This document shows, in pieces, positions 1-59,400 of a stretch of 64,000 nucleotides of DNA. Position 1 is the first letter of the stretch. The number at the start of each line of letters is the position of its first letter. A model generated the notes under the pieces. The model made no database searches. It was given only the letters and a program-made list of their open reading frames with translations, and was not told where the DNA came from. The position numbers were made by a program, and so were the translations under genes. The stretch spans positions 18,457,101 to 18,521,100 of the forward strand of contig CM049319.1 of NCBI GenBank assembly GCA_026874595.1, written 5' to 3'. This stretch comes from Sipunculus nudus (lineage: Eukaryota; Annelida; Sipuncula; Golfingiida; Sipunculidae).

Positions 1-2482
1 GCACTCCAAAGTACAGCTCAGAATAATGGAAAATTTGATACAAAAGCTGAAGTATCTGAACAACTAATGCAGAGATCACCATAATTGTTTTCATGGATAT
101 TGATCATGGAGTGTTTCATCAGTTTCTGCAGACTGGTGGCACCACCTGTATTTGTTCGGCTTTTTTTACGAATTTTTTCTCTATTTTTGAGACCTTTAAA
201 GTTATGAACATCTGTTAACAGGGCACAAATCATTAAAACTGGACCTAGAATCTTCATTCTTGACACACAGGGAGACCCATGAAAAGTCTCCATGGAAACC
301 TGAAATTAGGTCTCTGTTACCCATATTCTTTAAGCTGTATGGCTCCAAATTACCCCCCAGAATAATGAAAAATTTAATACAAAAACTGCAGTATCTCAAT
401 TACTACAACACTGATGGTCATGATTTTTGGCATACATATTGATCATGACCTGTTCAATCAGTTTCTGCAGACTGGGTGTGCCACCACTATTTTTTTCAAA
501 TTTTTACGATTTTTTTTCTCTTTTTTTGATACCTTTAAAGATGTGGTTATCTGTCAACAGGGTACAAATCGCAACAACTGGACCTAGAAACTTCATTCTT
601 GTCATGCAAGAAGGCCCATGAAAATGCCTGTGGAAAGTTTGTAAGTGTTTTTATTAGTTTCTGCAGACTGGTGGAGCCACCTGTATTTTATGTACCCGCC
701 AAAACGAAGTTTTGTGGATACTATGTTTTTGACCGGGCTCCTCCGCCGTTGCCGCGTTCGTTTCCAGAGAGCTCCTCTGGGACTTGATTTTATCAGCTTT
801 CCAAGCTCATATCTCGGGAACCGTTTGACTGATCAGGAAATAAAATTTATACTAATGTAGCCCTCGGATAGCTCTATAACATACACAAAAAATGGTGGCG
901 CCACCTGTAACCATGTTTGCACAGTGTCCATCTGTTCATCTGCCTTTGGTTAAAATCACTCATATCTCTGCAGTGAATTGACTAATTCACCTGAAATTCG
1001 GCATGCGTATACATCCTGGATAGCTTTCTTGATTTTATGACAGGTGGCACCACCTACATTCTCATTCACGCTGATGACATCCAAGCTCATATTTCGGGAA
1101 CCATTTGACCGATCGGGCCAAAATTTTGCATGTATATAGATCTAACATAGCTCTTTATCATACGCTAAACTGGTGGCGCCACCTGCAACCATTTTTGCAC
1201 AGCGTCTGTCTGTTTGTCTGCCGTGCAATAATGTCACTCATATCTCGGCAGTGGTTTGACATATCTGCCTAAAATTTTGCAGTTTTATACATCCTGGATA
1301 GCTTTCTTGATTTTATGACAGGTGGCACCACCTACATTCACGTTCACGCTGATGACATCCAAGCTCATATCTCGGGAACTGTTTGACCGATCGGGCCAAA
1401 ATTTTGCATGTGTATAGATCTAACATAGCTCTTTATCATACACAAAACTGGTGGCACCACCTGCAACCATTTTTGCACAGCCTCTGTCTGTTTGTCTGCC
1501 GTGCAATAAAGTCACTCACATCTTGGCAGTGGTTTGACATATCTGCCTAAAATTTTGCAGTTTTATACATCCTGGATAGCTTTCTTGATTTTATGACAGG
1601 TGGCACCACCTTTATTCTAGTTTATGCTGCAGACATCCAAGCTCATATCTCGGGAACCGTTTGAACGATTGGGCAAAAATTTTGCAAGTGTATAGATCTC
1701 ACATAGGTCTTTATCATACACAAAACTGGAGGGGCCACCTGCAACCATTTTTGCACATTATGCACAGCGTCTGTCTGTTGGTCTGCCGTGGCCTAAAATC
1801 ACTCATTTCTCTGTAGTGGTTTGACATAACTGCCTAAAATTTTGCAGGTTTATACATCCTGGATAGCTTTCTTGATTTTATGACAGGTGGCGCCACCTAC
1901 ATTCTAGTTAACGCTGCACACATCCAAGCTAATATCTCAGGAACCATTTGACTGATTGGGCCAAAAGTGTGCTTGTGTTTAGATCTCACATAGGTCTTTA
2001 TCATACACAAAACTGCAACCATTTTTGCACAGCGTCTGTCTGTTTGTCTGCCGTGGGCTAAAATCACTCATATCCATGTAGTGGTTTGACTTTTCTGCCT
2101 AAAATTTTGCATATGTATACAACTTGGAAAGCTTTCTGGATTTGTGGTAGGTTGCACAACCTACATACACATTAAGGCTGCAGATATCCATGCTAATATG
2201 CAACATACCTCACTCTGTTTCCCCTTGCCACTCAATCCATGCCTCACTTCACTCTGATTTTGGCAGATACAGGTAGTCACTTGTCGGCTACCCGTATTCT
2301 AGTTTTTAAAGTTTACACATTTTTTCTCTATTTTTCAGATATATAAATACAGACTAAATCTTGGCCTGTTGGTTAATCTGTTTGATGCTTCAGTTGAATG
2401 GGTATCTACCATTCTGATGATAAAATTTCCTTTTGTGAATCTCTTCCCAGTCAGCTGAGCGTCATGACCCATGGGTCACTTG
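1..2482 (+). mobile_element. T1-type Helentron-like element, 5' end outside window, hosting a nested T2 element
   Basis: Degenerate units of about 340 bp (containing GGACCTAGAA, AATTTGATACAAAA-type and CAGACTGGTGGCACCACCTG motifs) fill 1-690 and resume at 2303 after the T2 insertion. The 3' end is canonical for family T1: subterminal TCAGCTGAGCG at 2451-2461, the palindrome TGACCCATGGGTCA just after it, and CTTG ending at 2482 before TT. The 5' hairpin is not in the window. No coding capacity is seen. Confidence 0.6.
691..2302 (+). mobile_element. T2 Helentron-like element, copy 1
   Basis: The 5' hairpin is TACCCGCCAAAAC then GTTTTGTGGATA. The 3' end has a mutated inverted subterminal repeat GGCAGATA (2262-2269), a hairpin GTAGTCA..TGTCGGCTAC and terminal CTAG (2299-2302). 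The core is about four tandem units of about 278 bp, each with two near-palindromes of the GGTGGCRCCACC type (893, 1043, 1171, 1319, 1448, 1599, 1731, 1886). It lies inside a T1 element. No ORF. Confidence 0.65.
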
Positions 2483-3687
2483 TTCCTGTAAGTACTGTGG
2501 ATTTAATTTTCTCCACATTTTTTGGTTAGCATTTTGTCTGTTAACACCAAAAATTTGAAACCAGTTGATCAAAAACTGTAGATTTTATTCAAGTTTTCAA
2601 GCACCATGTAACATATTGTTTACATCAGGCTAGTGTTATGCAGTTTGCAAGAGCTCAGCTCCCCAGCTTCAGCTCTCGTTCCTTTAATTTGGCATACAAT
2701 TAGATGTCTCCGAAATCCCCTACCATGCCAAGAATTTGGTCACTAGGACTTAATACCTTTGAGATATTAATGAAAAACTTCATTTTTCAATTAAAAACCC
2801 ATTGTTACACTTCAATACTGCCTAATATCAAAACCACTGATCTGACTTTAATCATATATAATATACATGTTTTTCTATACATTCTCTGTGCGCATGCCAG
2901 AAATGATGTCAGTATTGCGTAATTGTTATGGGCCCAAACATAATGCACTTTGTAAAAAATCAAGAAATATATTTACTCCCTTAAAAAGGGGCTTGCTGAA
3001 GCTAGAGATTAATGTCAGGGATGTAACATTATTTAATCAAGATTCAATTGAATACCCAAAATTAGTTCTGAATTTTTTTAAAATTTTATAAGTTATTAGT
3101 ATAAATATAAAATTAGTACCTTAAATTTTGCCCAACTTTGACCATTTCACATTTGTTTCTTGTGAGCTCTGTTTATATAATTTTCATATCATGCACACAT
3201 AAGGAAATTATAAAATTTCATGCATATAGAATGGGAATTCAGGTAAAAATGAAAGTATATGAATACCAGTGCAAATACTTTCCAAATGTATTCATGAATG
3301 CATTCATGAATATTTTCTTTAATATTATTTTAATAATCATTTCAGTTATATTTCATTTTAAAAATCATACGATTCTCTTATTATTTTTAATAAAAATTAT
3401 ATCTGGGACAATATTTGTAATTTTTTTAAATAAATAGTTAAACTCTTATATTATATGTTCTGCTTACAAGTTATATGGCCAAGTCAAAATCTGTGTGACA
3501 ATAGTACTCCATTTGTTAATAAAATAAATGAAATCAATCCTCTTCCCTGTCTCCAAAGGTACTATCAAAATCATACATAAGTTAAACAACAACAACTCAT
3601 AATACAGCTTATACTTATTGCCTCATTTCTAAATCATATTTTTTTATCATATATAACAGCTGAGCGCTGTGACCCATAGGTCCCTTG
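2483..3687 (+). mobile_element. T1 element, 3' portion
   Basis: The sequence from TTCCTGTAAGTACTG to the end aligns by eye with 7028-8690 plus 12166-12541 and with 50550-52576, with a large internal deletion. It ends in CAGCTGAGCGC (from 3658), a GACCCATAGGTC near-palindrome and CCTTG at 3687 before TTTT. Its left half is probably upstream of the window, beyond the T1 copy that ends at 2482 (inference). Confidence 0.6.
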
Positions 3688-4097
3688 TTTTAAAATTTAT
3701 TCCTGACACTCAAAATGGCAGGGTGTGTATGTATTGATATTCCATAAGTGTAAGCTCCATCAGATAATATAACAATTAAGGGTAATTATATGATATTGCC
3801 AAATTAATTACTGAGTAAATGATGAAAGGGTACTATCAAAATCATACATAAGTTAAACAACAACAACTCATAATACAGCTTATACTTATTGCCTCATTTC
3901 TAAATCATATTTTTTTATCATATATAACAGCTGAGCGCTGTGACCCATAGGTCCCTTGTTTTAAAATTTATTCCTGACACTCAAAATGGCAGGGTGTGTA
4001 TGTATTGATATTCCATAAGTGTAAGCTCCATCAGATAATATAACAATTAAGGGTAATTATATGATATTGCCAAATTAATTACTGAGTAAATGATGAA
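3556..4097 (+). repeat. Exact tandem duplication, 2 x 271 bp
   Basis: 3556-3826 and 3827-4097 look identical base for base. The unit contains the last 130 bp of a T1 element including its 3' terminus and about 140 bp of adjacent DNA, so the duplication happened after that insertion. Perfect identity means it is very recent or an assembly artefact. Confidence 0.85.
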
Positions 4098-5598
4098 ATG
4101 TAACTGTGTATCTCACTGATACTGTTATCTTTTTGCCTGTTAGCATCCCTAGGTCATGGTTAATTCTAGTGGTTATATGTAGGTATAGCTTGCCAAATGG
4201 GAAGCTGATGGGGTATGCAACATCATTACATGTAAATTCTGGTTTTAATAGTTTCACTATGTATAACAGTGCTACTCACAGTGCTATTTATGAGTATACA
4301 TTCAGGGATATATGAACCAGTATAGTTTATACTGAAGAATACATTGAAGAAATATGGAAATGAGTGATGGGACTTTTAAAGTTTTATCAAAGTAAGTATT
4401 AACTATCTTTAAGGTCTTTTCCTCACTGCATGATTTGAGCACTTGACTATTTATCTAATCATTTCTGTTTTCTCTACATTTATTTGTAGGTCTAAAATAA
4501 TATATCCCTGTGTTTATATCTCAAAATTTAACACGATGAAAACATTCTGTACACATATGAATGACAGAGGACAATGGTGTAATAATATATTAAGTCATGA
4601 CATTTTGTAAATTGTTTGAGGTAGTGTTTGATTTCATAGAAAGATTTCATTACTTGTCCAGCTGAGAAACTGAAGGCTTGATGTTCAACCAAATAATCTG
4701 TATATTAAGTACAAGTACTTCCTCCTAATGTTATCAAATTTACAGTTCAATTAATAAATCCCAGTGATATTTGTTCAAAAGCATGATTATCACTTTACTG
4801 ACCTTACTTAATAAAATCATAGTTCTGGGTAATGGGAGGTGATTGCCTAAATAATTGTAATTTCATTTAATAACAGTGTAAACAATGAAATGATACTTTG
4901 TATTTCACTAATAATATTATCTTTTTGTCTGTAAGCAATTCTGGGTTATGGTTGCAGGGGTTATGTATCTGTAAGTATTCTTTGTTGTGTAACAAAGAAG
5001 ATGAGGATACAATATACACATGTAAATTCTGCTTTTATATAACAGTGCTGCCTATTTAGGTTGCATTCTGTTAACAGAATACACCTCACTTGCTAGTGGT
5101 GAGCTAGGTAATAGCATATTATTTAAATACAAATTATAAATTACTAATTTGCATCAGATTTAAACTTAAAATTACATATATGGCCAGCTGAGCACGTTAT
5201 AATGTCACAGTATGATGTAATATTGATAAATAGACCTGTCCTAGCATAAAATATAAAAAAAAACTTAAGGCCTGATTATTAAGGAATCAAAATATTTGCA
5301 TATAAATTGGGAATATTTAAAGTTCATGCTGGGATATCTTAGTGTTGCAAGAAGCTTATAATTATGATAAGGGTCCCTAGTAATAACTGATAAAATGTTA
5401 TATGCTGGTAGTATTATGAAGGTGGTTTAGCTGGATTCCAGGTAAAATTTGTTGTGTGACTGTGAGGAATCTGATGTTAAATCATGTTTCAGGACTGTGA
5501 GCCAAAAGTAGCTCGTGGTCAATCATTAATCGATTAATTTCATGTACATGCTCTTGTTTTTTCTTTTTTTTAACATTTGAAAGGACCATTGCCTTTTT
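4098..5598. other. Non-coding stretch with a diverged internal duplication
   Basis: No gene seen. The segment near 4092-4330 (TATCTTTTTGCCTGTTAGCA..AACAGTGCTAC) is partly repeated near 4885-5090 (TATCTTTTTGTCTGTAAGCA..AACAGTGCTGC), about 790 bp apart and well diverged. Confidence 0.4.
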
Positions 5599-6133
5599 TA
5601 GCTCAGCTGACTGAAAGTCAACTCAGATACAGGAATGGCTTTTGACTGTCATCCGTCTGCCCATTGGGCCATCCAGTCGTCCTGTAACAGGGCACAGATT
5701 GTCACTGATAACCCAAGAAACTTGTTACTGTATATCTAAAGAGGTTAATAAAAGATCTCTTTTGAAACTTGAAATTAGTTCACTGTGATCTATATCCTCC
5801 AAGCTATGGGGCTCGAAATGCCCCCCCCCCCCCCCCAGAATAATAAAAAATTTGATACAAAATACCCAGTATCTTGATAATTAAGCATGGATTGCAATGA
5901 ATCTTACTTTAAATATTGACTATAATAAGTTTTGCCAGTTCTCCACAAATAATGATGCCACTTGTATTATTTCTAATTTTAGGATTTTTTGGTCTGTTTT
6001 GAGACCATCAAATAACAGCAGTTATGTCAGTTTCTGAACTGTGGTTTCATTCAGTGTCCTGAAACCGAGTGTGTTTATTGATTATGATTGGTATCTTCAG
6101 TTCCTGAAGACTGATGGCACCACCTGTATGTTT
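5599..6133 (+). mobile_element. T1-type element, 5' portion
   Basis: Starts with the T1 5' subterminal repeat TAGCTCAGCTGACTGAAAGT at 5599, followed by the GTCATCCGTCTGCC-type leader and a core like that at 1-690. A C run lies at 5820-5836. The matching 3' part may be 12542-12856, separated from it by later insertions (inference). Confidence 0.55.
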
Positions 6134-6424
6134 TAGCTCAGCTGACTGTGAGTCATCTGAGCTAAAGTCATGGTCTTTTGTCCGTCATCCGTCCGTCTGT
6201 TAACAGGGCAGGTTTTGAATCTGTTGGACCTACTAATCTGAAATTCGGCATACAGTTGGATGACCCCAAAATCTCCCAGAATCTCCTTCCATACCAAAAA
6301 CTGAGTCACTATGACTTCATTCCTTTGAGATATTAAGGAAAAACCTCAATTTTCAATTAAAAACCAATTGTTACACTTCAAGACTGCTTAATATGAAAAC
6401 CACTGACCTGATATTAATCATTTT
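6134..6424 (+). mobile_element. T1 element, 5' portion, interrupted
   Basis: The 5' hairpin TAGCTCAGCTGACT / AGTCATCTGAGCTA at 6134 is followed by GTCCGT-rich leader and the AATTCGGCATA..GATG module. It breaks at 6424 inside the module (ATTAATCATT), where another T1 5' end begins. Other copies continue with ATATATAATATAC at this point, so this is a nested insertion. Confidence 0.55.
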
Positions 6425-8695
6425 TAGCTCAGCTGACTATAAGTCATCTGAGCTAAAGTTGTGGTCCATTGTCCATCGTCCGTCCGTCTGTCTGTCCGTC
6501 CGTCCGTCTGTCCATCCGTCCGTCCATGTGGCACGTTTTGAAACCGTAAGACCTAGGAATCCAAAATTCGGCATAGTGTTAGATGTCTCCAAGATCTCCT
6601 ACCAAGCCGAAAACTGGGTCTTTGCAACTTTGCCTTTGAGAAATTAAGGAAAAACCTCAATTTTTTATTAAAAACCTATTTTCACACTTCAGGGCTGCCT
6701 AATATCAAAACCACTCATCTGTTTTTCCTCATATTTACCATAAATATTCCTCTATATGGTTCCTATGTACATGCCTGAAATTATGTCTGCATTATATAAT
6801 TTAAGAAAGTTATGGGCCAGAACATAATGCATTTTGTAAAAAATCAGGAAAGATAAGTGATCACTTAACACAAAACTTGTTAAATCTATGTACTTTTTTT
6901 CAAGTAATATAACTTTAATTAATCAAAATTAAATTGTATACCCAAAATTACATCAAAATCTTTTAAATTTTTTAAAATATTAACAGAAATAAAAAATTGG
7001 TACCTTAAATTTTGCCTAACTTTGACCATGGCACGTTTTTTTCCTGTAAGTACTGTGGATTTAATTTTCTCAGCATGTTTTTGTTAGCATTTTGTCTGTT
7101 GACACCAAAAATTTGAAACCAGTTGATCAAAAACTGTAGATTTTATTCAAGTTTTCAAGCACCATGTAACGTTATTGTTTACATCAGGCTAGTGTTATGC
7201 AGTTTGCAAGAGCTCAGCTCCCCAGCTTAAGCTCTCAGTTCGTAAAATTTGGCATACAATCAGATGTCTCCAAAATCCCCTGTCATGCCAAGAATTTGGT
7301 CACTAGGACTTAATACCTTTGAGATATTAATGAAAAACTTCATTTTTCAATTATAAACCCATTGTTACACTTCAATACTGCCTAATATCAAAACCACTGA
7401 TCTGACTTTAATCATATATAATATACATGTTTTTCTATACATTCTCTGTGCACATGCCAGAAATGATGTCAGTATTGCGTAATTGTTTTAAGTTATGGGC
7501 CCAAACATAATGCACTTTGTAAAAAATCAAGAACTATATTTACTCCCTTAACAAGGGGCTTGCTGAAGCCAGAGATTTTTTGTCAGGGATGTAACATTAT
7601 TTAATCAAGATTCAATTGAATACCCAAAATTAGTTCTGAATTTTTCAAATTTTATAAGTTATTAGTATAAATATAAAATTAGTACCTTAAATTTTGCCCA
7701 ACTTTGACCATTTAACTTTTGTTTCATGTGAGCTCTGTTTATATAATTTTCATATCATGCACACATAAGGATTTCAGCTTTTTAGTTTAGAAAGCTGAAA
7801 GAAATTGGCCAAAAATTGTAGCTTTTATTAATGTTTTTATGAGTCCATGTCAGACCTTGGCTCTCTCCAGCCACTCTTGAGTCACCTGTTTGTTGACCTT
7901 GTTGAACTTTCAGCAAATTATGCACGCTTGAGGCGAAACATATACTGGGGCAGCCAGGCAGCTTATGGCCAGCCACAGTTGATCCAGGTGTCCAACCCAA
8001 CTCATCTAGTGGTTTTAACCAACAACATAACAATAAACAATAAATTAATCAATTTTTATTGGTTTTTAATAACAAATTAAAGAAAAATAGAAAAGGAATT
8101 TGTTAGTTTATAATAATAGGGAATTAACTTGCAGTTACTGATGATATAAGAATCTTGTATCGATGGATAGAATGTCACGTATTCCAAATAACACCATGCA
8201 GTCACCTATGGCATTTTTTAGTTCAATTTTAATAATAAAAAAGTAAATCATATTATTCATTACTAATCATTAGGGATCATATGAAGGAAATTAATGATAG
8301 ACAAAGATGCAGTTGATAATATTAATCTAGATTCCTACTGTGTCTAGTGTGTACATTGATGTGAAATTAGTCCAAAATGAATATATATCACATTTATTTT
8401 TTTTTAATATAAATAAAAGCCATAAAACCAGGTACTTATGATCATTATTTAAATGTGTGAATTTTGTACATTCTGGATTCTCAACACCATTGTTTGGTGA
8501 AAACTGAATAAATACCAGACATACCAGAATACTTTGCAATTGTAAATTTTAATACGAATATGAATATGTACTCCATTATAAAATTTCTTGCATAAAGAAT
8601 GGGAATTCAGGTAAAAATGGAAGTACATGAAAACCTGTGCAAATACTTTCAAAATGTATTAATGAATGCATTCATGAATATATTCTTTAATATTA

Positions 8696-11600
8696 TTGTA
8701 TCCCCAGACAAAGTTGGGGGATACTATGTTTTCATACCGGTCCAGCCGCCGCCGCTGCCGCCGCATATGAATCTTGTTGGCGCGATAACCAAAAAAATAT
8801 TTCACGGAACTTTACCAAACTTGGTATATGTATAGATATGGGTAAAAGGACGACGCCTATTTATAATGAGGTCATGACCTTTACTAGGAGAGTGTCCTTG
8901 ACCTTGAATAGGTCCAATTTTGGGGAAAATCCCACAAATTCTTTAATATCTCAAGAAATCTTGCATGGATTTATCCCAAAATCAAGTTGATGGAAGATCA
9001 TGGATAGGGTTGTCATGTTCCAGAAACTGGTGGCGCCACCTATTATTCTTTACTTGTTTTCTTGCCGATTAATACCCCCAAAATTGGCACCTTACAGCAC
9101 TGTGAGCATTATAAGTCAAAAACTAATGGACAGATTTCTTTTATATTATGCATATACATAGGTATGGGTTATGGGATGATGCTTATTTAAATTGGGGTCA
9201 TGACCTTTCCTATGAGTGGCCTTGACCTTGAATATTGCCATATATGGTGAAAATCACACACCTCTTATGATATCTCCAGTGTTGATAGCCATATGGATTT
9301 CAAACATGACTTATGTATGGCCCACCACTAAAGTAAGAACCCTATAGGTTCTAGGGTCATGAGGTCAAAGGTCAAGGTCACTGGACTGGCATTTTAAAAG
9401 ATACTGTGGATGCATTTTAAGCCAAACTTTCATCCCAGGTCTTCCATCTTGAATATATAGCTCACTTGCCAATAATGAATGATCCATATAAATTTTGGGG
9501 TCACAAGGTCAAAGGTCAAGGCCACATGAGCTATCTGTCCAAAAATTAGTTTCTGGATGATAATTCCTGCTTTTATTGATGTAATGATTTCAAAATTGAC
9601 TTATATATGTCCCATTGGAAAAGCAAGACCCAAATTGATTTTGGGGTCATGAGGTCAAAGGTCAAGGTCACAGGAAACCTCTTTAAAAAGATTGTGGATG
9701 CATTTTCAGCCAAACAATTCATCTCAGATCTTTCATCTTGCACATATAGTTCACCTGCAAAGAGTGGAAGACCACTATCAATTTTGAAGTCACAAGGTCA
9801 AAGGTGAAGGTCACAGGAGCCATATGTCCAAAAATTAGTTTCTGGATGATAATTCCTGCTTTTATTGATGTATGGATTTCAAACTTGACTTATATATGTC
9901 CCATTGGAAAAGCAAGACCCAAATTGATTTTGAGGTCATGAGGTCAAAGGTCAAGGTCACAGGACACATCTTTAAAAAGATGTGGATGCATTTTCAGCCA
10001 AATATTTCATCTCAGATCTTTCATCTTGCACATATAGTTCACCTGCCAAGAGTGGAAGAACCCTGTCAATTTTGAGGTCACAAGGTCATAGGTGAAGGTC
10101 ACAGGAGCCATATGTCCAAAAATTAGTTTCTGGATGATAATTCCTGATTTTATTGATGTATGGATCTCAAAATTGACTTATATATGTCCCATTGGAAAAG
10201 CAAGACCCAAATTGATTTTGGGGTCATGAGGTCAAAGGTCAAGGTCACAGGAAACCTCTTTAAAAAGATTGTGGATGCATTTTCAGCCAAACAATTCATC
10301 TCAGATCTTTCATCTTGCACATATAGTTCACCTGCCAAGAGTTGAAGACCCCTATCAATTTTGAGGTCACAAGGTCAAAGGTGAAAGTCACAGGAGCCAT
10401 ATGTCCAAAAATTAGTTTCTGGATGATAATTCCTGCTTTTATTGATGTATGGATTTCAAACTTGACTTATATATGTTCCATTGGAAAAGCAAGACCCAAA
10501 TTGATTTTGGGGTCATGAGGTCAAAGGTCAAGGTCACAGGACACATCTTTAAAAAGATGTGGATGCATTTTCAGCCAAATATTTCATCTCAGATCTTTCA
10601 TCTTGCACATATAGTTCACCTGCCAAGAGTGGAAGAACCCTGTCAATTTTGAGGTCACAAGGTCATAGGTGAAGGTCACAGGAGCCATATGTCCAAAAAT
10701 TAGTTTCTGGATGATAATTCCTGCTTTTATTGATGTATGGATTTTCAAACTTGACTTATATATGTCCCATTGGAAAAGCAAGACCCAAATTGATTTTGGG
10801 GTTATGAGGTCAAAGGTCAAGGTCACAGGACACATCTTTAAAAAGATGTGGATGCATTTTCAGCCAAACATTTCATCTCAGATCTTTCATCTTGCACATA
10901 TAGTTCACCTGCCAAGAGAGGAAGAACCCTGTCAATTTTGAGGTTTACAAGGTCAAAGGTGAAGGTCACAAGAGCCATCTGTCCAAAAATTAGTTTCTGG
11001 ATGATAATTCCTTCTTTTATTGATGTTAGGATTTCAAACTTTACTTGTATTTGACCCATTGGAAAAGCAAGACCCAAATTGATTTTGGGGTCATGAGGTC
11101 AAAGGTCAAGGTCACATCTTTAAAAAGATGTGGATGCATTTTAAGCCAAACATTTCATCTTAGATCTTTCATCTTGCACATATAGTTCACCTGCCAAGAG
11201 AGGAAGACCCCTATCAATTTTGAGGTCACAAGGTCAAAGGTGAAGGTCACAGGAGCCATCTGTCCAAAAATTAGTTTCTGGATGATAACTCCATCTTTTA
11301 CTGATGTATGGATTTCAAACTTGGCTTTGTTATTGACCCATTAGAAAAGCAAGACCCAAATTGATTTTGGGGTCATGAGGTCAAAGGTCAAGGTCACAGG
11401 AAACCTCTTTAAAAAGATTGTGGATGCATTTTCAGCCAAACAATTCATCTCAGACCTTTCCTCTTGCACATATAGTTCACCTGCCAAGAGTGGAAGACCC
11501 CTATCAATTTTGAGGTCACAAGGTCAAAGATGAAGGTCACAGGAGCCATATGTCCAAAAATTAGTTTCTGGATGATAATTCCTGCTTTTATTTATGTATG

Positions 11601-12165
11601 GATTTCAAACTTGACTTGTATATGTCCCATTGGAAAAGTAAGACCAAAATTGATTTTGGGGTCATGAGGTCAAAGGTCAAGGTCACAGGACACATCTTTA
11701 AAAAGATGTGGATGCATTTTCAGCCAAACATTTCATCTCATATCTTTCATCTTGCACATATAGTTCTCCTGCCAAGAGAGGAAGAACCCTATCAATTTTG
11801 AGGTCACAAGGTCAAAGGTGAAGGTCACAGGAGCCATATGTCCAAAAATAAGTTTCTGGATGATAATTCCTGTTTTATTGATGTATAGATTTCAAACTTG
11901 ACTTGCATATGTCCCATTGGAAAAGCAAGACCCAAATTGATTTTGGGGTTGTGAGATCAAAGGTAAAGGTCACAGGACACATCTTTAAAAAGATCAAGGT
12001 CACAGGACCAACAACTTCAACAAGATTGTGGATCGTTAGATGGAATAAACAATAAATATGCCAAGTGTCAGTATATGCTGCTAAAAATGGGGGTCTGTTC
12101 TTGTAGGAGGGGGGCCTACTATGTCTGGGGATACTCTGGCACCTGCGGTGCCAAGTAATGTCTAG
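8696..12165 (+). mobile_element. T3 Helentron-like element, copy 1 (3.47 kb)
   Basis: 5' terminus TTGTATCCCCAGAC with a hairpin to GGGGGATA, then a GCCGCC-rich leader. 3' end: the inverted subterminal repeat TGTCTGGGGATA (12122-12133), hairpin GGCACC-TGC-GGTGCC (12138-12152) and terminal CTAG (12162-12165). Flanks continue the interrupted T1 element: left ..AATATTA, right TTTTAATAATCATT... Paralogous uninterrupted sites at about 3321 and 52190 have a single run of T (one C in the latter), so the insertion junction is directly inferable. The core is a 289-bp tandem array. No transposase or Rep/helicase is seen, so it is non-autonomous. Confidence 0.75.
9290..11990 (+). repeat. Tandem array of about 289-bp units in the T3 core, with DR1-type motifs
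   Basis: Units begin around GATGTATGGATTTCAAACTT near 9585, 9868, 10157, 10445, 10733, 11023, 11305, 11594 and 11879, after a diverged first unit: about 9 copies, spacing mostly 288-289 bp. Neighbouring units in the middle are the most alike, as expected from unequal exchange. Nine exact copies of AGGTCAAAGGTCAAGGTCA start at 9362, 9652, 9941, 10229, 10518, 10807, 11096, 11378 and 11667. The short translations seen across the array are shadows of the repeat. Confidence 0.9.
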
Positions 12166-12541
12166 TTTTAATAATCATTTCAGTTATATTTTATTTGAAA
12201 AAAATCATACTATTCTCTTATTATTTTTAATAAAAATTATATTTGGGACAATATTTGTAATTTTTTTAATAAATAGTTAAACTTTTATATTATATGTTCT
12301 GCTTATAAGTTATATGGCCAAGTCAAAATCTGTGTGACAATCGCACTCCATTTGTTAATAAAATGATATTAATCCTCTTTCCTGTCTCCAAAGGTACTAT
12401 CAAAATCATACATGAGCTAAACAACAACAACTCATAATACAGCTTATACTTATTACCACACAAAACCAGCATGTGCCTCATTTCTAAATCATATTTTTTA
12501 TCATATATAACAGCTGAGCGCCGTGACCCTAAGGTCCCTTG

Positions 12542-14844: not shown

Positions 14845-15105
14845 GTTTAAGTTAGAAACCCTGAGGCAGCTATAAATTTATCCAGTGTTAAGTGGAAATT
14901 ACATCAGATCCATTGGAATACATTATAGATAAAAGTTCATTGTGGGAATCACTCTGAATCTATTGGATATATCTGTAGGGGTTAATTTTTGAATCTGCAT
15001 ATGCTAACAAATGCAGCAAAACAGGATGTTTACAGTGCCCAAATGGACCATTTTCTTTGGTTATTAGTGTGTAAATACTTGTAATGTATAAGGGAAAACA
15101 GTTGG
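14845..15105 (+). other. DENND2: 5' UTR part of the large DENND2 exon
   Basis: A pyrimidine tract followed by ACAG at 14841-14844 is a good splice acceptor, so an upstream non-coding exon is expected but was not found. The frame of the main coding exon has a TAA at 15082, 24 bases before the first in-frame ATG. A short upstream ORF (15084-15134, 16 codons plus TGA) overlaps that ATG in another frame. Confidence 0.65.
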
Positions 15106-47400: not shown

Positions 47401-50400
47401 ATTCGAATCTTCTTAGTAATTCAAGAAATGGAATTTTCATCATAGATTAAGATTTCAAAATATTACTTTTAGAATTTAAATATACAGTGACTTTAAATGG
47501 ATCATCCAAATATTTCTATCCAAAATATATTGGAAAATCAGTACCAAACAAGAATACGGCATGGCATGTAAAATCTGTATATTCACCAAATTCCATCGGC
47601 TGTAGTGACATGTTCTACCATTTATATCTACAAGCGGGTTTCCCCTCTAACACTATTTCCATTCATAAAATATATTCGTGATTGTATAAAAAAACAAAGA
47701 TTAAACAGAAGTAAATGACCGGGCTATACACATTCAAGGATGAAGGTTTTCCAGAAACATGACATGGGGCGAGAAGATGGGCCATTCAATATTGAGGTAC
47801 ATGTATCAGACATTATAAAAAAATGTCAGTAAGTAACCTGCTAAATTTGAATTTTTATAGAGGTTTTATATTGTTCTAAATTACATATTTTTAAAAAATA
47901 ATATAATAAAATAAATTATATGATTTTCTTAATTTTTTTTTACAAACAACATAAATTCCAAGGCAATCCGGCTCCGTCAAAGGTATGACCGGTAATATCG
48001 ATTTTTTCTAACAGACGGCACCACTAGTCCTCACCATGAATAATCTCATTCATTTTAATCTCGTTATAAGTGTTGTTATTTTTCAATGTTTATTGTTATT
48101 GTTCAATTGATTGCATATAATTATCATATTTTATATGAACATTTAGACTATACAATTTTATACCATAAATCTGTGACTACAAAGAGTATTACCTCTGTGG
48201 TGTGCTTGATCTCCTTTTATCGCCCAAAGGAGCGCCATGTCCGGGTGAGAGTTCTTCTCACAGTTCATTTCTGATTAACCATCTATTTATGGCCGCATAC
48301 CGAGTTCAGAAAAAAAGTCGAGATTTTCGATTTTGAGTTTGTTTTTAAGGCCGCGGCGATAAAAACAGGATTTACGGTATGTATCATATATTTATAACTC
48401 TTAATCAGTTACCAGTTACTGGGTGAATATGGCCCCATTGTTATATATTGATACGTATATTTATCATATCTTGCTAAGGATGGGGGGGGGGGGGGGGGGT
48501 TCAAACCATAATTGTATATGAGGATAGCATGAACTGCTGGTCAGTGTGTTAAAAGCTGAAGGTTTATCTGTGACAATTCAGAAATTCAGTAGTATACACA
48601 TCATTAAACTCAACTGGAGAAAATAAAATCTAATGATCCATATCACTCTTTTGGACCATGCAGGAATTCAGGCACACATGTAATTACCCTTCAAATGTAC
48701 CAGGAAGAAGGAGAAATATGGGTTATAACAAGATCATATAAAAACATAGGGCTCAATAAAGCAATTACTGCAGTGATATTGTCTTGATAAACACACATGG
48801 CCTGTGGTATAATTTCTTGTTTACAGAAATGTGTTCTGTGTCATATCTTTATTCTGTATGACCTTGTATTTAAAAAGTAGCCAAACTTTCCCTGTGATGT
48901 AAATTTTGCACCGCTTTATTTAAGTGCTTTCTGTGGTTTCTTTTTAACATGTTTTATTACAGTTTCTTTAACACTGGTGCAGGACATTTCCTTACTGTTT
49001 AGTCATTAGAACATTCTGGAGTATATGTTCATAGTTTAAGTGTATCGCTGCTTAATAATATATAAGACAATATATTTCCAACATCTGTGAAACATTAATA
49101 AGAAATATATGAAAAAGAAAAAATGAACCTAGCATGAAAACTATATGGCATATAAGATCAATATGATAAGAAGGAAAGCTATTTGAACAAGTGTTACTTT
49201 CCATGATTTTCAGGTAATCTTGTCATGCAAGCTTTATTGTAATGCTGGCTGTGTTTCCTACCCAGAAAAATGCCAGTTATTACTCACTAACAACCAGTGT
49301 TTATTAGTGATGAGTTGATCATCTAATACTTATAAAAGGAATTCGGTTCACGTCTGTTCGCAATGTTCTCTAAAACCGCGTTGTGTACAATACTGTGCCA
49401 TCCCTGCAGTGACATAGGCATGGGAGAATAAATAATTTTAAATGTACATATAATTTTGAGTGATTGCTCCGTTTTTACTGACTTGCACAAAGGTTAGACC
49501 GAGCACAGCCGAACTGCCTTTGGCAATGACCGAACTGCGTGCATCGTGGTCACTCAGCCTCAAACATTATTATTGTTCATATGAATAACGCTCGCTTTCA
49601 GTGATGGATTTGAGCCTGTCGGGACTAACATTTGAAAGAGGCTCTCACCCACATGTGTGGTCAATAGAAGAGAAAATCACATCTTTCTCGCTTTATGAAA
49701 TGGAGAGTTCAACCCAGGTGGATTAATGACGAAACCTAATTCAGGGTCCCAATTTCTTGAACAGATGCTGGATGGGGTGGGGTGGAGTGGTGTCGGGGGT
49801 TTAAGGCCTCAAGATTTTTATGATATGATGAAAAAAGGTTGCGATGGCTGAAAATGAGCCATCCTAACCTTACTTTTCTCCCTAGCCAATATAACATGGG
49901 GCAAAGTAATGCTCTCATTTCTCCCCGCCAAGCTTAAAAGTTACAGCCAGTTTTTATTAGCTCAGCTGACTATAAGTCATCTGAGCTATAGTCGTGGTCC
50001 ATTTTCCGTCGTCCATCCGTCCGTCCGTCCATAGATGTGGCACGTTTTGAAACCGTAAGACCTAGGAATCCAAAATTCGGCATAATGTTAGATGTCCCCA
50101 AGATCTCCTACCAAGCCGAAAACTGGGTCTTTGCGACTCCGTTCCTTTGAGAAATTAAGGAAAAACCTCAATTTTTTATTAAAAACCTATTTTCACACTT
50201 CAGGACTGCCTAATATCAAAATTACTCATCTGTTTTTCCTCATATTTACCATAAATATTCCCCTATATAGTTCCTATGTACATGCCAGAAATTATGTCTG
50301 TATTATATAACTGAAAAAAATTATGGGCCCAAACATAATGCATTTTGTAAAAAATCAGGAAAGATATTTGATCACTTTACACAAAACATGTTAAAGCTAT

Positions 50401-53400
50401 GGACTTTTTTTCAGTAATATAACTTTAATTAATCAAAATTGAATTGTATACCCAAAATTAGATCAAAATCTTATAATTTTTTTTAAATATTAACAAAAAA
50501 TAAAAAATTGGCACCTTAAATTTTGCCCAACTTTGACCATGGCACATTTTTTTCCTGAAAGTACTGTGGATTTAATTTTCACAGCATGTTTTTGTTAGCT
50601 TTTTGTCTGTTAACACCAAAAATTTGAAACCAGTTGATCAAAAACTGTAGATTATATTTAAGTTTTCAAGCACCATGTAACATATTGTTTACATCAAGCT
50701 AGTGTTATGCAGTTTGCAAGAGCTCAGCTCCCCAGCTTCAGCTCTCAGTTCCTAAAATTTGGCATACAATTAGATGTCTCCAAAATCCCCTACCATGCCA
50801 AGAATTTGGTCACTAGGACTTAATACCTTCGAGATTTTAATGAAAAAAATTCATTTTTCCATTAAAAACCCATAGTTACACTTCAAGACTGCCTAATATC
50901 AAAACCACTGATCTGACTTTAATCATATATAATATACATATTTTTCTACACATTCTCTATGCACATACCAGAAATGATGTCAGTATTGCGTAATTGTTTT
51001 AAGTTATGGGCCCAAACATAATGCACTTTGTAAAAAATCAAGAAATATATTTACTCCCTTAACAGGAGGATTGCTGAAGCTAGAGATTTTTGTCAGGGAT
51101 GTAACATTATTTTATCAAGATTCAATTGAATACCCTAAATTAGTTCTGAATTTTCAAATTTTATAAGTTATTAGTATAAATATAAAATTAGTACCTTAAA
51201 TTTTGCCTAATTTGACCATGGCATGTTTGTTTCCTGTGAGCACTGTTGATATAATTTTCATATCATACACACATAAGGATTTCAGCTTTTTAGTTTAGAA
51301 AGCTGAAAGAAATTGGCCAAAAATTGTAGCTTTTATTAATGTTTTTATGAGACCATGTCAGACCTTAGCTCTCCCCAGCCCCTCTTGAGTCACCTGTATG
51401 ATGACTTTGTTGACCTTTCATCAGATTATGCATGCTTGACGTGAGGCATACACTGGGGCAGCCAGGCAGCTTATGGCCAGCCACAGTTGATCCAGGTGTC
51501 CAACCTAACTCATCTTGTAGTTTTAACTAACAACATAACAATAAACAATAAATAAATAAATTTTTATTGGTTTTTAATAACAAATTAAAGAAAAATGGAA
51601 AAGGAATTTGTTAGTTGATAATAACAGGAAATTAACTTGCAGTTACTGATGATATAAGAAGCTTGTATCGATTGATAGAATGTCACATATTCCAAATAAC
51701 ACCATGCAGTCACCTGTGGTATTTTTCAGTTCAATTTTAATGATAAGAAAATAAATCATATTATTAATTACTAATCATTAGGGATCATATGAAGGAAATT
51801 ATTGATAGACAAAGATGCAGTTGATAATATTAATCTAGATTCATGCTGTGTAGTGTGTACATTGATGTGAAATTAATCAAAAATGAATATATTACATTTA
51901 ATTTTTTTTTAATATGAATAAAAGCCATAAAACCAGGTACTTATGATCATTATTAAAATGTGTAAATTTTGTATATTCTGGATTCTCAACATCATTGTTG
52001 GGTGAAAACTGAATAAATACCAGACATGGTGCGAATACTTAGCAAATGTATTTGAATACAAATATGAATATGTACTCCATTATAAAATTTCTTGCATAAG
52101 AATGGGAATTCAGGTAAAAATGAAAGTATATGAATACTTGTGCAAATTATTTCAAAATGTATTCATGAATGCATTCATGAATATATTCTTTGATATTATT
52201 TCAATAATCATTTCAGTTGTATTTTATTTTAAAAATCATACGATTCTCTTATTATTTTTAATAAAAATTATATTTGGGACAATTTGTAATAATTTTTAAT
52301 AAATAGTTAAACTCTTATGTTATATGTTCTGCTTATAAGTTATATGGCCAAGTCAAAATCTGTGTGACAATAGCACTCCATTTGTTAATAAAATAAATGA
52401 AATCAATCCTCTTCCCCGTCTCCAAAGATACTATCAAAATCATACATAAGCTAAACACCCACAACTCATAATACAGCTTATATTTATTTCCACACAAAAC
52501 AAGCATGTGCCTCATTTCTAAATCATATTTTTTTATTATATATAACAGCTGAGCGCTGTGACCCATGGGTCCCTTGTTCTATCTCCGTTAGGCTTAATCA
52601 TCTAATATAATAATAATATTAGTTACACACAACAGAATAAGTGGTCAAGTGTGTCATAGATAACACTGACTGGTGATGTCCGTGAAGGCCGACCCTGCAG
52701 GTGGCCATGCTGATCGGATGACCTGAATTCAGGTACGCATGTGGATGTATTATGCAATGAAATATATATACTTACCGTATTTGCTTGTGTACAGGACCAT
52801 AAATTTTATCCTAAAATTATTTGGCAAAGAAGGGCGGCCGTCTTATATACGGGTACAGCATCCTCAGGGCCACCAAGGATAATTTACGGCAATCAGTATT
52901 ATTACGTTGGTCAAACTGGACCACCGTATGGTGGCAATATACACTCAATAAAGAACATTACAATGCTTTGTTTTTGTTTGAATTTTTCGTTTACACAGCA
53001 GATTTACACGTGCGCATAGTAAATAATTCGTAAGAAAATGTTTGCCCTTGCCACATTTACTCAATGGGATTTTAACTGAATCAGTATATGAAAGCCCTTC
53101 TGACAGTAGAGCCAGTGATTTTCCGTGATCGTGGACGGAATCTTGGAACTGACAGATCAAAACAGAATTCCCAATCCTGAAAATATACAAGTTTTAATGT
53201 ATTTTTAGCCAAATATATCTTGGTTATTCACTTGAAACATGTATGCTGTGAATTGAAACATGTATGCTGTGATATAATTTTCTATGCCGCTGACAGGGTG
53301 CGAGGCTTACCCATGTCCTTAAGATCCCAGAGCCCTGGGTTTATTGGTGTGTACACAGGGTTCATGCAAGGGATGCTGGGACTAAATCCCATCCAGTTGC

Positions 53401-56400
53401 ACGTAATATGCATATTAAACAAGGATGATTTTTTCACACAATAGGTCAGTGTGTCGATGTTGATGAATTGTTTTAGATCAAGAGATAAGCTTGACAGTCT
53501 TTGAATTAATATAGAAAGGTGTAATATGGATGTAAGTACCAATAGAAATGGCCGTAGCTTAATTGACTTGTGTAGAAGTGCTGATTTAAAAATAGTAAAC
53601 GGTAGGGTTGGTGAGGATGAAGGAATCGGCCAATTTACATGTCAAAATGCCAATGGTCATAGTGTTATTGACTATGTTGTAACATCACCTTGTTTATTTC
53701 CCAAGATTAGAGGTTTTAAAATTGACATCCATGATAAATTTTTATCTGATGTACACAGTCCAGTTTGCATCACACTATTAATGGCAGACTCAAATTTTGA
53801 CTTCTCAGATAAAGTCAACAGAAATAATGTGTGTGGCACATCTAATTACAATGGAGAAAGAGAACAAAATACATCTATTATAACATCAAGGTGGCAAAAT
53901 AATCTCACTGTTCAATACAAGCAAGCGTTTGAGTCAGATTTGATTGAAAGCTTAAAGACTAAGCTAGAAAATACACAGTCAGAATCATTGGACCAAAAAT
54001 ATATTGATGAACTAACAGCGAACCTCTGTCAAATTTTATTAAATACAGCCAAAATTACCGGGATCACTAAATTAATACAAGTAAATGGACAAAAGACAAA
54101 AAATAGCAAAAACAGAAAGATTGGTCACAAACCATGGTTCAATAAAGATTGCGAAAACAAAAGAAGGGAGTATCTGCAAGTTAAGAACAGAAGTAAGGGA
54201 GCTAACTCACCAGATACTAAATTATTTATCAAACAGAAAGCAAAAGAATATAAAAATTTCATTAAAGGGATTTCAAAAAAATATTACAGAGAAATTCATA
54301 ATCGTTTGAGAAACCTCAAAGGCAATAATCCGAAAGAATACTGGAAAACCATCAACAGTGCTTCTTGTTCTCTGAGAAAACAGAACAGCATTAATATAGA
54401 GACCTTTTCTGAGCACTTCAAAAACCTGAATCAGTGTGCATCTGACAACAGAAACAGATAGTCTAAACAATTTGATCCCAGAAAGATTAATCACTCAATT
54501 AATGAATTCATTAACGATGACTTTACAGTTGAAGAAGTGCAACTACAAATCCTCAAATTGAAAAACAACAAGGCTTGTAGCATTGATAATATTTTAAATG
54601 AGTTCATTAAAAATTGTCCTAGTGATATAGTGTCCCTTATAGTCAACTTGTTTAATATTATTCTACATACTGGAATGGTGCCAAATGACTGGTGTGTTGG
54701 AGTTATCCAGCCACTATACAAAAACAAAGGGTCTTTTGATGATCCCGATAACTATCAGGGCATTACATTGCTAAGTTGTCTTGGCAAACTATTCACATCA
54801 ACCGTAAACTGTAGATTATCAAAATATATTGAAGCATGTGGAATTATTGGTGATGAGCAGGCTGCTATGGGTTTAGAGAAGGCTTTTCTACTCTTGATAA
54901 TATTTTCACCCTCCACACTTTAATAGAGCTTTACTTACATAATAAAAAGAGAATCTACTGTGCATTTATTGATTATAAAAAAGCCTTTGATTTAGTAGAT
55001 AGATCATCTTTGTGGGTCAAGCTACTTAATAATGGTATTAACGTTAAAGTCATGACTGTGATCTATAATATGTACAGTAATGCTAAATCATGTGTAAAAA
55101 AGGGAAAATGCTTGTCTTCTTTTTTCACTTGCAATACTGGAGTACGTCAAGGTGAAAACCTTTCACCACTATTATTTGCTATGTATTTAAATGATTTTGA
55201 ATATTTCATAAGCCGCAGTTATAAAGGTTTAGATTTCATAGCGAATACTATCAGAGACAAGCTGAGTGATGATGATACAGAATTATATCTAAGAATGTAT
55301 GCTCTGCTGTATGCCGATGATACCATTGTAATGGCCGAGTCTGCAGAGGAGCTACAGACTGCCTTGAATTATGTGGTTGAATATTGTGAGAAATGGGAGC
55401 TCCATGTCAACGCCAGTAAAACGAAAGTGGTAATATTTTCAAGGGGTAAGATAAGATCTTCATCATCCTTTCTCTTTGGGAAAGAAAAACTTGAGGTAGT
55501 AGATGATTATGTTTATCTGGGTACAACCTTCAATTACAATGGTCTATACAACAAGGCTATAAACTAACAGGTCAGTAAAGCCAAGCTAGCCATGTTCAGT
55601 CTAAACACCAAAGCACGTAAATTGTGACTTCCAGTTGACATCAACTGTGAACTATTTGACAGCCTTGTCACCCCAATTCTGTTATATGGATCTGAAATGT
55701 GGGGTTTTCAGAAAATGGGTCACATCGAAATATTTGAAAGAAATTTCTTTAAGAATCTACTGAAAGTACCTAGGAAAACAGCTAATTGTATGGTTTATGG
55801 TGAATTAGGCAAAATACCGAAGAATGATTAATTTTTGGATAAAATTAATTGGAGGAAAACAGTCCAAATTGTCTAGTATAATGTTTAAGCTTCAAAAATG
55901 TTTATATGATAATTCAAATTTTAAACCAAAATGGGCTTCAAAGATTAAGAATATTCTTGATAAATGTGGTTACTCAAACATGTGGCATATGGGTCATGAT
56001 GTGAACAAAAACTGGTTACGCAACAGTATTGAACTCAGACTCAAGGATATTAATATGCAAGACTGGCACAATGAATTAGAAGGCAACAGGTTATGTACTA
56101 GTTATAGAATCTTTAAACAAGATTTAGGTCTAGAAGTATACTTGAAACAGCTTAATTACACAGATAGGATAACCTTAGCCAAATTTCGTTGTGGAGGTCA
56201 CAGATTACCTGCATCAAGTAATAATTATAACTATTTGTCTTATTCAAATATATGTGATTTATGTAACTTAAATGAACAAGGTGATGAGTTTCATTATTTA
56301 TTTAAATGTCCACAGTTTAAAAAGGAGAGATCTAGTTTATTAAACAGTTATTTTTGGAGCAGACCTAATACTTTGCAAAAAGTATGAATTGTTCGATATT

Positions 56401-59400
56401 ACAGACCCATTACAACTATCAAAGTTGGCCAAGTTTGTTAAAATTTTCATGTCTAGATTTAAGTAGTGAAGCAAACCTTAGTTTCATCAATTTATATTCC
56501 ATAGGATTACAATCACATTTATTTTAATGCCTAGTTTTTTCTTTTGCACATAGTGTTACATATATAGCTGTTTATGTTGTCTATATTTTTTTATGCACAG
56601 ATTTAGTGTTACTCACGGTTGTCTACAGATGTTATTTTGCTCATGATGTTACGTATAGCTGCTTGTGTAGATTATAGAAACTTTCTTTAAATAGGTGTTC
56701 TTTGCTTATAGATAATAGTAAACTTTAATTAGTTCAAGCTCAACTACATGTCAGTATTATTTTATTAGCAATTATATGTAAGAATTAATTTGTATAAATG
56801 TTCTGCGTAACAGCTATGTACCAAAAGGAAAAAAAAAAAAAAAGTGTATTTAGACACTTGTATCTTTGTAATAAAAACAGTTTTATTTTTGTCATTATAC
56901 CAATTTAAATTCATATTGAATTGGATTATAAAATTTTTGATACACTAGTCAATATTTAAATATGTCTCGTTATTTGCTGTAATTGTATCCGCCAAAACAG
57001 AGTTTTGCGGATACTATGTTTTCAGCCCAGCGCCACCACAGCCGCCGCCATGTGGGTGTCCGGAGAACTCCTCCGTAACCGCTGGGTGGAATTTTACGAA
57101 ACCCGGGATTATGTTCGGGTCACATGTGAACTGCTGCGCCCCGATTTTGTTTTGACCTCTGACCTTTCCTCTGCGCTCTGCTTCCGTTTGTGCGTCGGTT
57201 TCCACACATAAACCCACATATCTCGGGAACCGTTTGACTGATCAGGAAAATTTTTTTGGACAAATGAAGCCCTTGGAGAGCTTCATAACATACACAAAAA
57301 ATGGTGGCGCCACCTGCAACCATGTTTGCACAGTGTCCATCTGTTCGTCTGCCTTGGGTTAAAATCACTCCTATCTCTGAAGTGGTTTGACTAATTCACC
57401 TGAAATTCGGCATGCGTATACATCCTGGATAGCTATTCTGATTTTATGACAGGTGGCACCACCTACATTGATGTTTACACTGCAGACATCCAAGCTCATA
57501 TCTCAGGAACCGTTTGACCGATTGGGCCAAAATTTTGCATGTGTATAGATCTCACGTAGCTCTTTATCATACGCAAAACTGGTGGCGCCACCTGCAGCCA
57601 TTTTTGCACAGCACCCGTCTTGTTTGTCTGCCATGGGATAAAATCACTCATATCTCGGCAGTGGTTTGACATATCTGCCTAAAATTTTGCAGGTTTTATA
57701 CATTCCAGACAGCTCTCTTGATTTTATGACAGGTGGCGCCACCTACATTCTAGTTTATGCAGCAGTCTGTTTGTCTGCCACAGGCTTAAATGACTCATAT
57801 ACATGTAGTGGTTTAATGTATCTGCCTTAAATTTTGCATATGTATACAACTTGGACAGCTTTCTGGATTTTGTGGTAGGGGGGCAACCTACATATACATT
57901 TTGGCTGCAGACATCCATGCTAATATGCAACACTTCACTCTATTTCCTCTTGCCACTCAATTCATGCCTCACTTCACCCTTTCCACTCTGATTTAGGCGG
58001 ATACACGTAGTCGCTTGTCGACTACCCGTATTCTAGTTTTATACTTTTTTTACATGGTACCACTACCTCATGTATTGTTTCATGAACATTGCTGTGTCAT
58101 TTATGTATCATATCACATTGCATTGTCATTTTTCCATGTATAGTGGCTTTATAATACAGATGTACAGAACTCTGTATACCTCGAAAGGGGTCTTTGAATT
58201 ATTATTATTAAATTATTATAATTATTATATGGTGCCATATTTACCGCGTAAAATATTAACAAGTCCAGTGAATGCGGAAGCTGTCAGCTGGCTTGCACAC
58301 TGACATACACGGAGACTCGCACATGGCACTTCGATTACAAGACAACCAGTAGCGCCTTATAATTATAAATATGAAGCGGCCTTTCCTCAGGTGAAGCGAA
58401 ATTCAATGTTTGTCAAGCTTGTATTATTGGACAACATCAAGAAATGAATGTATTATAAGGGGTCAACAAAGTCCAAGAAAGGGACCCTGTTTCTGCGGGA
58501 TATAAATATGACGAATTTCCTCACAGTTTTAAAACAAACCCCGGATTTGGTGCGTATACGCACTGAAGTTAACAAAATACCCTGGAGTCTGAGGGCCGGT
58601 ATTTCAGGTTTTTTTTAAAAAACTTTTGCATGTAATATCATGTACAATGATGGAAAAAAGGACAATTATTGGTGATGCCATTCCATGTCATACATCGGCT
58701 CAGCTGTCAAAGGTATTTGCGCAAGGTGACTGACATAATCGGGGTACTGACGTCCCATATTATATTTTTTCATCTTTCAAATAAACTGTTTTACATACCT
58801 TTATATGAACATTTTATATATTCTACTACCTTATTAGGCGTTCATTTATTACCATCCTTATATTTCCTCTTCACCTGCAAAGGAAATCTTGAACTGCAGT
58901 TATTCATACAATTCTATCATACAACACAAAATAAAATCGGTATCACTTGGATTAGTTATTATTTTTCAAAACTTCACATAACCATCGCTAAAAGATCGTT
59001 GGTTTTTCTGAATTGTCCTGAATGTGCTGTGAAGTCCAATACCTGTACACAAGCTGCAGTGTTAAATTAGAGGATCGTAACGCACTTTGAAAGTTGGCAG
59101 ATGTGGGGGGGGGGGGGGGGGGGGGCGCTTATTAGGGTATAAAAATATTTGGGGGAAAATTTAATTTTGAGAGTGCCCGGGGCGCTTATTATGTTGAATA
59201 CGGTAACACAGAGGAGTGTGCTTGGTGCATACCCAGTTACGCATATAAATTGAAAACTTAATTCAGGTAAATACTATCAAATTGAAAACAACAGTTGCTC
59301 TTTAAATCTCTTAACATGTATCCTTTCCAGTTTTTCAGTATCACCAAAAATGATAACTCTGAAATGTAAATATGGGCATTTGCTCTTGTTGTTTATCATG

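Follow-up and report, generated by a model that had tools for sequence, protein, structure and literature searches.

Replicase-bearing units with the termini of two HINE families, T1 and T4, in the genome of Sipunculus nudus

A stretch of 64,000 nucleotides from the genome of Sipunculus nudus (assembly GCA_026874595.1, contig CM049319.1, positions 18,457,101 to 18,521,100; hereafter the window) carries four repeat families, T1 to T4, which a preliminary description made from the letters alone had taken for Helentron-like elements of one common build. Our analysis of their ends, of empty sites without target duplication (T3, T4) and of Rep-bearing partners with the same termini (T1, T4) bears out this identification, and we are confident that T1-T4 are ordinary non-autonomous rolling-circle transposons of the HINE/DINE-1 class of Helentrons. 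The blueprint itself is already known; what is new here is the replicase-bearing partners of two HINE families, T1 and T4.

The T1 partner was recognized in three units of 15-16 kb with a Rep gene, on C17, C5 and C10, each delimited by the T1 hairpin at its 5' boundary and by a T1 3' terminus at the other. The last 1.09 kb of the three are 98.6-98.8% identical, and the homology stops within 3 bases (the flanking Ts) of the T1 CTTG; at the other end it starts at the T1 hairpin, and the left flanks are unrelated. The unit on C17 measures 14.9 kb (including one T2 HINE), and junction coordinates give ~15.8 kb on C10 and ~16.1 kb on C5. The C17 gene is an uninterrupted frame of 2342 amino acids with Herpes_teg_N, DUF6570, Helitron_like_N and PIF1 domains; its endonuclease part lies below the Pfam cut-off, and in a relative on C13 the same part lies above it, as Exo_endo_phos_2. 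On C17, Rep, PIF1 helicase and this sub-threshold AP-type endonuclease lie together between T1 termini, and the three copies on C17, C5 and C10 make the firm case of a T1-ended partner.

The joined flanks of the C5 copy returned no full-length empty site. For the C10 copy, six paralogous places, 94-96% identical over all 109 query bases, represent the empty site, and they join the left flank not to the sequence behind the unit's own T1 3' end, but to that past a second one: the own end is followed by 45 bases like the last part of a T1 HINE (TTTATCATATATAACAGCTGAGC...CTTG), and then by the flank. Two of the four empty sites that were read out are GGTTT^TTTAAGG, and the other two differ there by one or two bases. 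The simplest reading is a read-through past the unit's own 3' end to the second T1 3' end, in which the element would have inserted into the T-run of a T1 HINE and a later transposition would have bypassed its own 3' end, halted at the 3' end of the HINE and moved the composite.

The candidate T4 partner, on C3, opens with a T4 5' end (96% over 112 bp), behind which T4-type repeats extend for ~1.1 kb, so that in this unit, as in that on C17, the HINE tandem repeat stands just inside the 5' end. Frames of 964, 189 and 877 amino acids follow, the first and third with DUF6570, Helitron_like_N and PIF1, and the unit closes with a T4 3' end after a total of 12.0 kb. The gene is broken, and its endonuclease part is recognized only by similarity to a type A Helentron protein, A2. 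When the two flanks were joined, 40 matches scored from 2561 candidates had 82-86% identity and all spanned the junction, 35 of them covering all 127 bases. Since the joined flanks are intact elsewhere, the 12-kb segment most likely inserted as one unit. In the matched parts, the C3 proteins are 30-33% identical to the T1-type protein of C17 and 35-42% identical to A2. The former value argues for separate replicase lineages behind T1 and T4, barring the replacement of one by the other.

Across the genome, the Helitron_like_N profile gave 143 matches (from 150 scored of 195 candidates, some loci forming two rows). The downstream side was covered for 27 Rep loci, unevenly, from ~0.6 to 8.5 kb past the gene, and for several of them the gene end was not located. 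On the Rep strand, 11 of the 27 have a T1-type 3' end (B3, L040, L041, L043, L045, L046, L047, L049, L052, L064 and L065) and one has a T4 end (L066); L071 has a weak T1-like match together with a HINE 5' remnant. L049 and L064 have flanks in common and were counted as one event. Within a 13-locus subset, T1-type 3' ends were on the Rep strand in 8 loci and on the opposite strand in 1. Other Rep types also have such ends: the pairs L046/L052 and L045/L047 stop at a T1-like CTAG end, and a third type, the pair L064/L065, stops at a T1 end, its C-terminal parts being 41-55% identical to the C17 protein. The search for a Rep/helicase reading frame flanked by the same termini, proposed in the preliminary description, was successful for T1 and T4 and unsuccessful for T2 and T3 at these 27 loci.

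Several observations weigh against the overall assignment. Fourteen of the 27 Rep loci have no T-type end (A2, A5, B4, L001, the C3/C5 pair, L042, L044, L048, L050, L051, L069, L070 and L072), among them B4, which encodes an 84%-identical relative of the C17 protein; no T2 or T3 partner appeared at the 27 loci covered out of the 143 Rep matches; and a HINE may have landed by chance behind the Rep gene in some of the 11 cases with a T1-type end. The C5 and C10 units were read at their ends, with the Rep domain taken from the profile match, and the C17 gene alone was read through. For T4 there is just one copy of the partner, its reading frame is disrupted, and the similarity of its 3' end to the T4 HINE (86%) is limited to 55 bp. 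Among the HINEs, the sole empty site of T2 is weak (78% similar), and for the complete T1 HINE a local search found none, no genome search having been made.

As for the loci lacking a T-type end, none was found within 7-8.5 kb downstream of type A on C11 and C13 or of the C3/C5 pair, nor at B4 (C13), nor in the 1.1 kb covered downstream of L001 (C8). The two members of the C3/C5 pair remain nearly identical (99.6%) as far downstream as they were covered; the pair may be a segmental duplication and was dropped as a boundary test. The type A Helentron genes sit between blocks of one satellite on C11 (L002/L006/L007/L061) and C13 (L005/L008/L009/L062), for which reason their ends are not settled; on C8 (L051/L063), of which only the downstream side was covered, the same satellite is seen as a downstream block. 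Between C11 and C13 the upstream part of type A is 97% identical and the gene only 87%.

The ends themselves were compared by shuffling. Over the first 46 nt, the pair scores of T2/T3, T2/T4 and T3/T4 were reached by 0 of 1000 shuffles, and the T2 and T3 5' ends have the sequence TTGTATCC...GGATACTATGTTTTC in common. At the 3' ends of T2, T3 and T4 the resemblance is far weaker, with 22, 15 and 294 of 1000 shuffles scoring as well. The T1 ends have no likeness to the other families beyond chance, the 5' comparison of T1 with T4 being borderline (40 of 1000 shuffles). The earlier statement that the four families have no obvious shared sequence consequently stands for T1 against the rest and fails for the 5' ends of T2, T3 and T4.

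These comparisons bear on the suggestion, also made in the preliminary description, that one replicase could mobilise all four families, which would have to act in trans through the shared fold and not the end sequence. The same architecture in all four families, the 5' sequence shared by T2, T3 and T4, the occurrence of T1-type ends with differing Rep types and the use of a second T1 3' end by the C10 element are all consistent with it. However, the long units that T1 and T4 termini enclose carry different replicases, on C10 the additional 3' end is of the T1 type as well, and T1 ends are unlike the others apart from the borderline 5' match to T4; we consider a single replicase improbable, and for T1 and T4 the partner proteins do not support it. 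That the long units are chance juxtapositions of HINE 5' and 3' fragments on either side of an unrelated Rep gene is highly improbable: it is true that HINEs crowd this genome, that the window by itself has five T1 3' ends and that the C5 flanks gave no empty site, but the three T1-ended copies share both boundaries within unrelated flanks and the joined flanks of the C10 and C3 units are intact elsewhere.

The class assignment was examined at the insertion sites. The T3 element of the window lies in a T1 element, and the unoccupied form of the site is present at two T1 paralogues (window 52055-52345 and 3207-3476), where it reads ATATTA^TTTTAATAA, with one C in one paralogue; the element between, TTGTATCC...CTAG, is not accompanied by any duplication. 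A T3 copy inserted in a 55-bp satellite likewise has no target duplication. At locus L028, a T4 element lies inside the T-run near a T1 3' end, and the same run is unoccupied at four places in the window, one of them the T1 3' region at 12436-12541 (+). Insertion between Ts without target duplication was thus found for the T3 and T4 HINEs and for the T1-ended partner on C10; for the T4-ended partner it rests on the joined-flank matches. Target duplications typical of another class, which the preliminary description had named as a sign against Helentrons, are not seen at the T3 and T4 empty sites, and a miniature inverted-repeat transposable element (MITE) or other terminal-inverted-repeat DNA transposon was rejected for want of a target-site duplication. 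A canonical Helitron begins with 5' TC, ends with 3' CTRR and inserts between A and T. This class was also rejected, as the 5' ends here begin in T-runs, the targets are T-runs and a 5' hairpin is present.

Both ends are readable in the window for T2, T3, T4 and one complete T1, and all four terminal motifs are present. Each element has subterminal inverted repeats (subTIRs) at both ends, a short inverted copy adjoining the 5' subTIR, as in DINE-1 and Cg_HINE, and a 3' hairpin between the subTIR and the terminus, which is weak (4 bp) in the window T4. A motif-free scan for this build required an 8-mer with TT within a few bases before it, an inverted copy starting 2-14 nt beyond it with no more than 1 mismatch, a second occurrence of the inverted 8-mer within 6 kb downstream, and a hairpin of at least 4 bp followed by CTAG or CTTG and TT. 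It recovered T3 at 8698-12165, T4 at 39984-40695, T1 at 49960-52576 and T2 at 56985-58036 with no other matches, compared with 0 in the reversed window and 5 in all in 30 first-order Markov shuffles. The scan had been relaxed once, with the four elements already known; its stricter first form found T2 and T3 only (0 in 20 shuffles), and the relaxed form misses the more diverged second copies of T2, T3 and T4. The common build and the tandem cores described earlier are real, with the periods then given.

The complete T1 (TTAGCTCAGCTGA ... CTTG) spans 49955-52576 (+). Three T1 5' termini lie within 5596-6460 (+; at 5596, 6131 and 6422) and further ones at 18212, 28497 and 42193, while a T1 3' terminus, CAGCTGAGC-palindrome-CTTG, occupies 2452-2482 (+) and others end at 3687, 3958 and 12541. 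The complete T2 (TTGTATCCGCC ... CTAG) is at 56983-58036 (+), and a second T2 at 690-2302 (+) has a core of five 278-bp units at 800-2199. The complete T3 (TTGTATCCCCAGAC ... CTAG), the one nested in T1, spans 8696-12165 (+) with 9.4 copies of a 289-bp unit at 9292-11994 (+), and the more diverged second T3, at 43000-44283 (+), has a 323-bp tandem core at 43158-44165. The complete T4 (TTTTATGCCCCCGCC ... CTAG) is at 39980-40695 (+) and the second T4 at 19640-20488 (+), with cores of 180/181-bp units at 40093-40602 and 19736-20390. Across the 1.43-Gb genome, an exact 12-mer of the T1 5' end occurs 43,786 times (control, 16), and the 5' ends of T2, T3 and T4 occur 12,418, 3,659 and 4,472 times at no more than 3 mismatches (controls, 0 each).

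We infer rolling-circle, single-strand transposition for these elements because of the Rep domain, the lack of target duplication and the 3' read-through. In such a mechanism, the cognate Rep would nick the 5' end, one strand would be peeled off by rolling-circle synthesis, synthesis would stop at the 3' subterminal repeat and hairpin, and the released strand would be joined into a T-run. We further take the cognate Rep to recognize the inverted repeat found at each end, in which case related replicases would, as a group, share a terminus type, and no single master would serve all four families.

All assigned elements and T1 5' ends in the window are on the + strand (T1 matches on the - strand are the hairpins' own complement), and some unassigned end-like hairpins are on the - strand. 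Strand was examined further in the first 100 places listed for each family, 400 of more than 64,000, all on C1. The counts that follow are among these places, which span 0.1-58.8 Mb and thus part of one chromosome, with one small control; the pairs are non-independent, elements nested in older HINEs were kept in and the assembly scaffolding was taken as is. Up to 0.935 Mb, 71 of the 73 T1 places were on the - strand, and from 1.228 Mb all 27 were on the + strand. The other families were also on the - strand below 1.1 Mb (T2 10/10, T3 3/3, T4 6/6) and on the + strand after the switch, up to 2 Mb (T2 3/3, T3 5/5 in one tandem array, T4 1/1), a common switch between 1.08 and 1.23 Mb. In a stretch chosen by eye, 17.1-18.2 Mb, all 21 T2-T4 places were on the - strand.

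Pairs of different families among T2-T4 were then tested against 2000 circular shifts of the strand labels, same-family neighbours closer than 3 kb being collapsed. The same strand was found in 48 of 57 pairs at 3-25 kb, 106 of 135 at 25-100 kb and 126 of 180 at 100-200 kb (280 of 372 combined), values reached by 0 of 2000 shifts in each bin. The 200-300 kb bin is at chance (86/162; 592 of 2000 shifts), and the decay is not smooth, since 300-500 kb again showed agreement (213/337; 0 of 2000) and 0.5-1 Mb did not (394/781; 857 of 2000). Without the first 3 Mb, the same six bins gave 40/49, 93/122, 103/154, 68/142, 186/294 and 353/696. A tRNA B-box control showed no agreement with T2-T4 (27 of 58 pairs at 3-100 kb, 64 of 125 at 100-300 kb and 14 of 29 nearest pairs), and it agreed with itself in 18 of 19 pairs at 3-25 kb, regularly spaced arrays included. 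The repeat hosting the C3 unit (24 C1 places of 100 listed) was not counted as an orientation control: a GTCC microsatellite, tandem units and the GGTGGCGCCACC motif mark it as a probable further HINE core. It agrees with neighbouring T2-T4 in 12 of 14 nearest pairs, and if it is no HINE, this agreement speaks against a Helentron-specific cause.

The bacterial transposons IS200/IS605 prefer the lagging-strand template as their target, and their orientation accordingly follows the direction of replication (PMC5371812). By analogy, the direction of the replication fork might set the insertion strand of Helentrons, one exposed template strand serving as target; we put this forward tentatively, as a real possibility, for the strand pattern of these eukaryotic elements. 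Among the papers listed by literature searches, titles, abstract openings and passages contained no report of such a pattern for Helitrons or Helentrons. A shared strand could instead reflect target supply, if T-runs on one strand, including those in older HINEs, pull in insertions of the same orientation. The window T3 and the L028 T4 each lie in a T-run of a T1 element whose orientation they share, and for the C3 unit the T-run is probably that of another HINE core. Outside the HINEs of the window (masked by hand), however, A-runs are about as common as T-runs (T versus A, 422/390 at a length of at least 4, 137/139 at 5 or more and 43/46 at 6 or more), and yet the assigned elements are all on the + strand, and agreement across families persists at 25-200 kb, far beyond one nest; target supply or nesting as the cause is therefore rather doubtful. 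If fork direction does set the strand, tens of thousands of HINEs, from families with different replicases, would preserve in their orientation a fossil record of how forks moved, in domains of ~200 kb or more whose switch points, such as that at 1.08-1.23 Mb of C1, would mark initiation or termination zones.

Other repeats were noted alongside. The T3 core contains AGGTCAAAGGTCAAGGTCA nine times, all on the + strand (window 9362-11685); genome-wide it has 22,468 exact copies and the reversed pattern 0, and we take it to resemble the DR1 nuclear-receptor site. Copies of the palindrome GGTGGCGCCACC were seen in both T2 and T3 elements and again in the T1-ended partner (L053, L054); in the window they lie at 894, 1172, 1886, 9029, 28099, 43329, 57303, 57581 and 57732. 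A further HINE-like 5' hairpin, TTAGCCCTCAGC...GCTGATGGGCT, is found inside a T4 copy (L020 from 338, where L024 aligns) and in the window at 45845 (+) and 15223 (-); both window places have 3' end-like hairpins before CTAG or CTTG, and no family was assigned. At C1:1407664-1421700 (L036, L037), five T3 5' ends stand in tandem, 2.6-2.8 kb apart and each with a 55-bp satellite flank; rolling-circle concatemers were rejected here, as the flank repeats too, which indicates tandem duplication. The window also holds 34 copies of a 56-bp satellite with 99% matches (25631-27535) and a reverse transcriptase fragment (PF00078, E 8.5e-27) at 54857-55564 (+), probably from a non-LTR retrotransposon.

A literature search with the terminal motifs returned only papers unrelated by title. 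The subTIR, the adjacent inverted repeat, the tandem core and the 3' palindrome are all described in the accessible text of PMC4067079 and PMC7492417, and the third, hairpin-forming 5' copy, which the preliminary description had singled out as possibly novel, is already known there as the 'IR' of DINE-1 (PMC4067079) and of the oyster Cg_HINE, in which it is 7-12 bp long and 1-12 bp from the subTIR (PMC7492417). As excerpted, Cg_HINE of Crassostrea gigas agrees with the present families in its 5' subTIR with adjacent complementary IR, GTCC-type microsatellite, tandem core and 3' subTIR with palindrome, its families being unrelated in the core and sometimes in the flanks (PMC7492417). DINE-1 and Helentrons of Drosophila, a mite and Culex share the 5' subTIR with IR (DINE-1), the 3' stem-loop, the TT target without duplication, variable Ts and partners with the same termini; in contrast, the partners here are 12-16 kb long with a tandem array in the 5' part, and the 3' end is CTAG or CTTG (PMC4067079, in part). 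VTD-protease Helentrons, whose hosts include molluscs, similarly have a tegument-type protease domain, to which Pfam Herpes_teg_N would correspond here, and a C-terminal endonuclease; unlike those in the sections available of PMC9741609, the present ones are linked to a defined HINE family. For Helraiser/Helibat, passages of PMC4778049 describe bypass of the 3' terminator and the gain of new 3' ends, some of them next to Helitrons already in place, as empty sites attest; the C10 element, in contrast, is a Helentron, and the 3' end at which it stops looks like that of a T1 HINE.

For the oyster elements, the text seen of PMC7492417 states that no autonomous partner could be related to them and leaves the partners of satellite-HINEs unresolved; here, in contrast, two HINE families are tied to their partners by exact termini and intact empty sites. 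Both partners contain a satellite-like core in their 5' part, which may thus be the source from which the repeats spread. If the strand domains hold genome-wide, target finding by eukaryotic rolling-circle transposons would become directly testable, and the orientation of these elements would provide a cheap proxy for replication direction.

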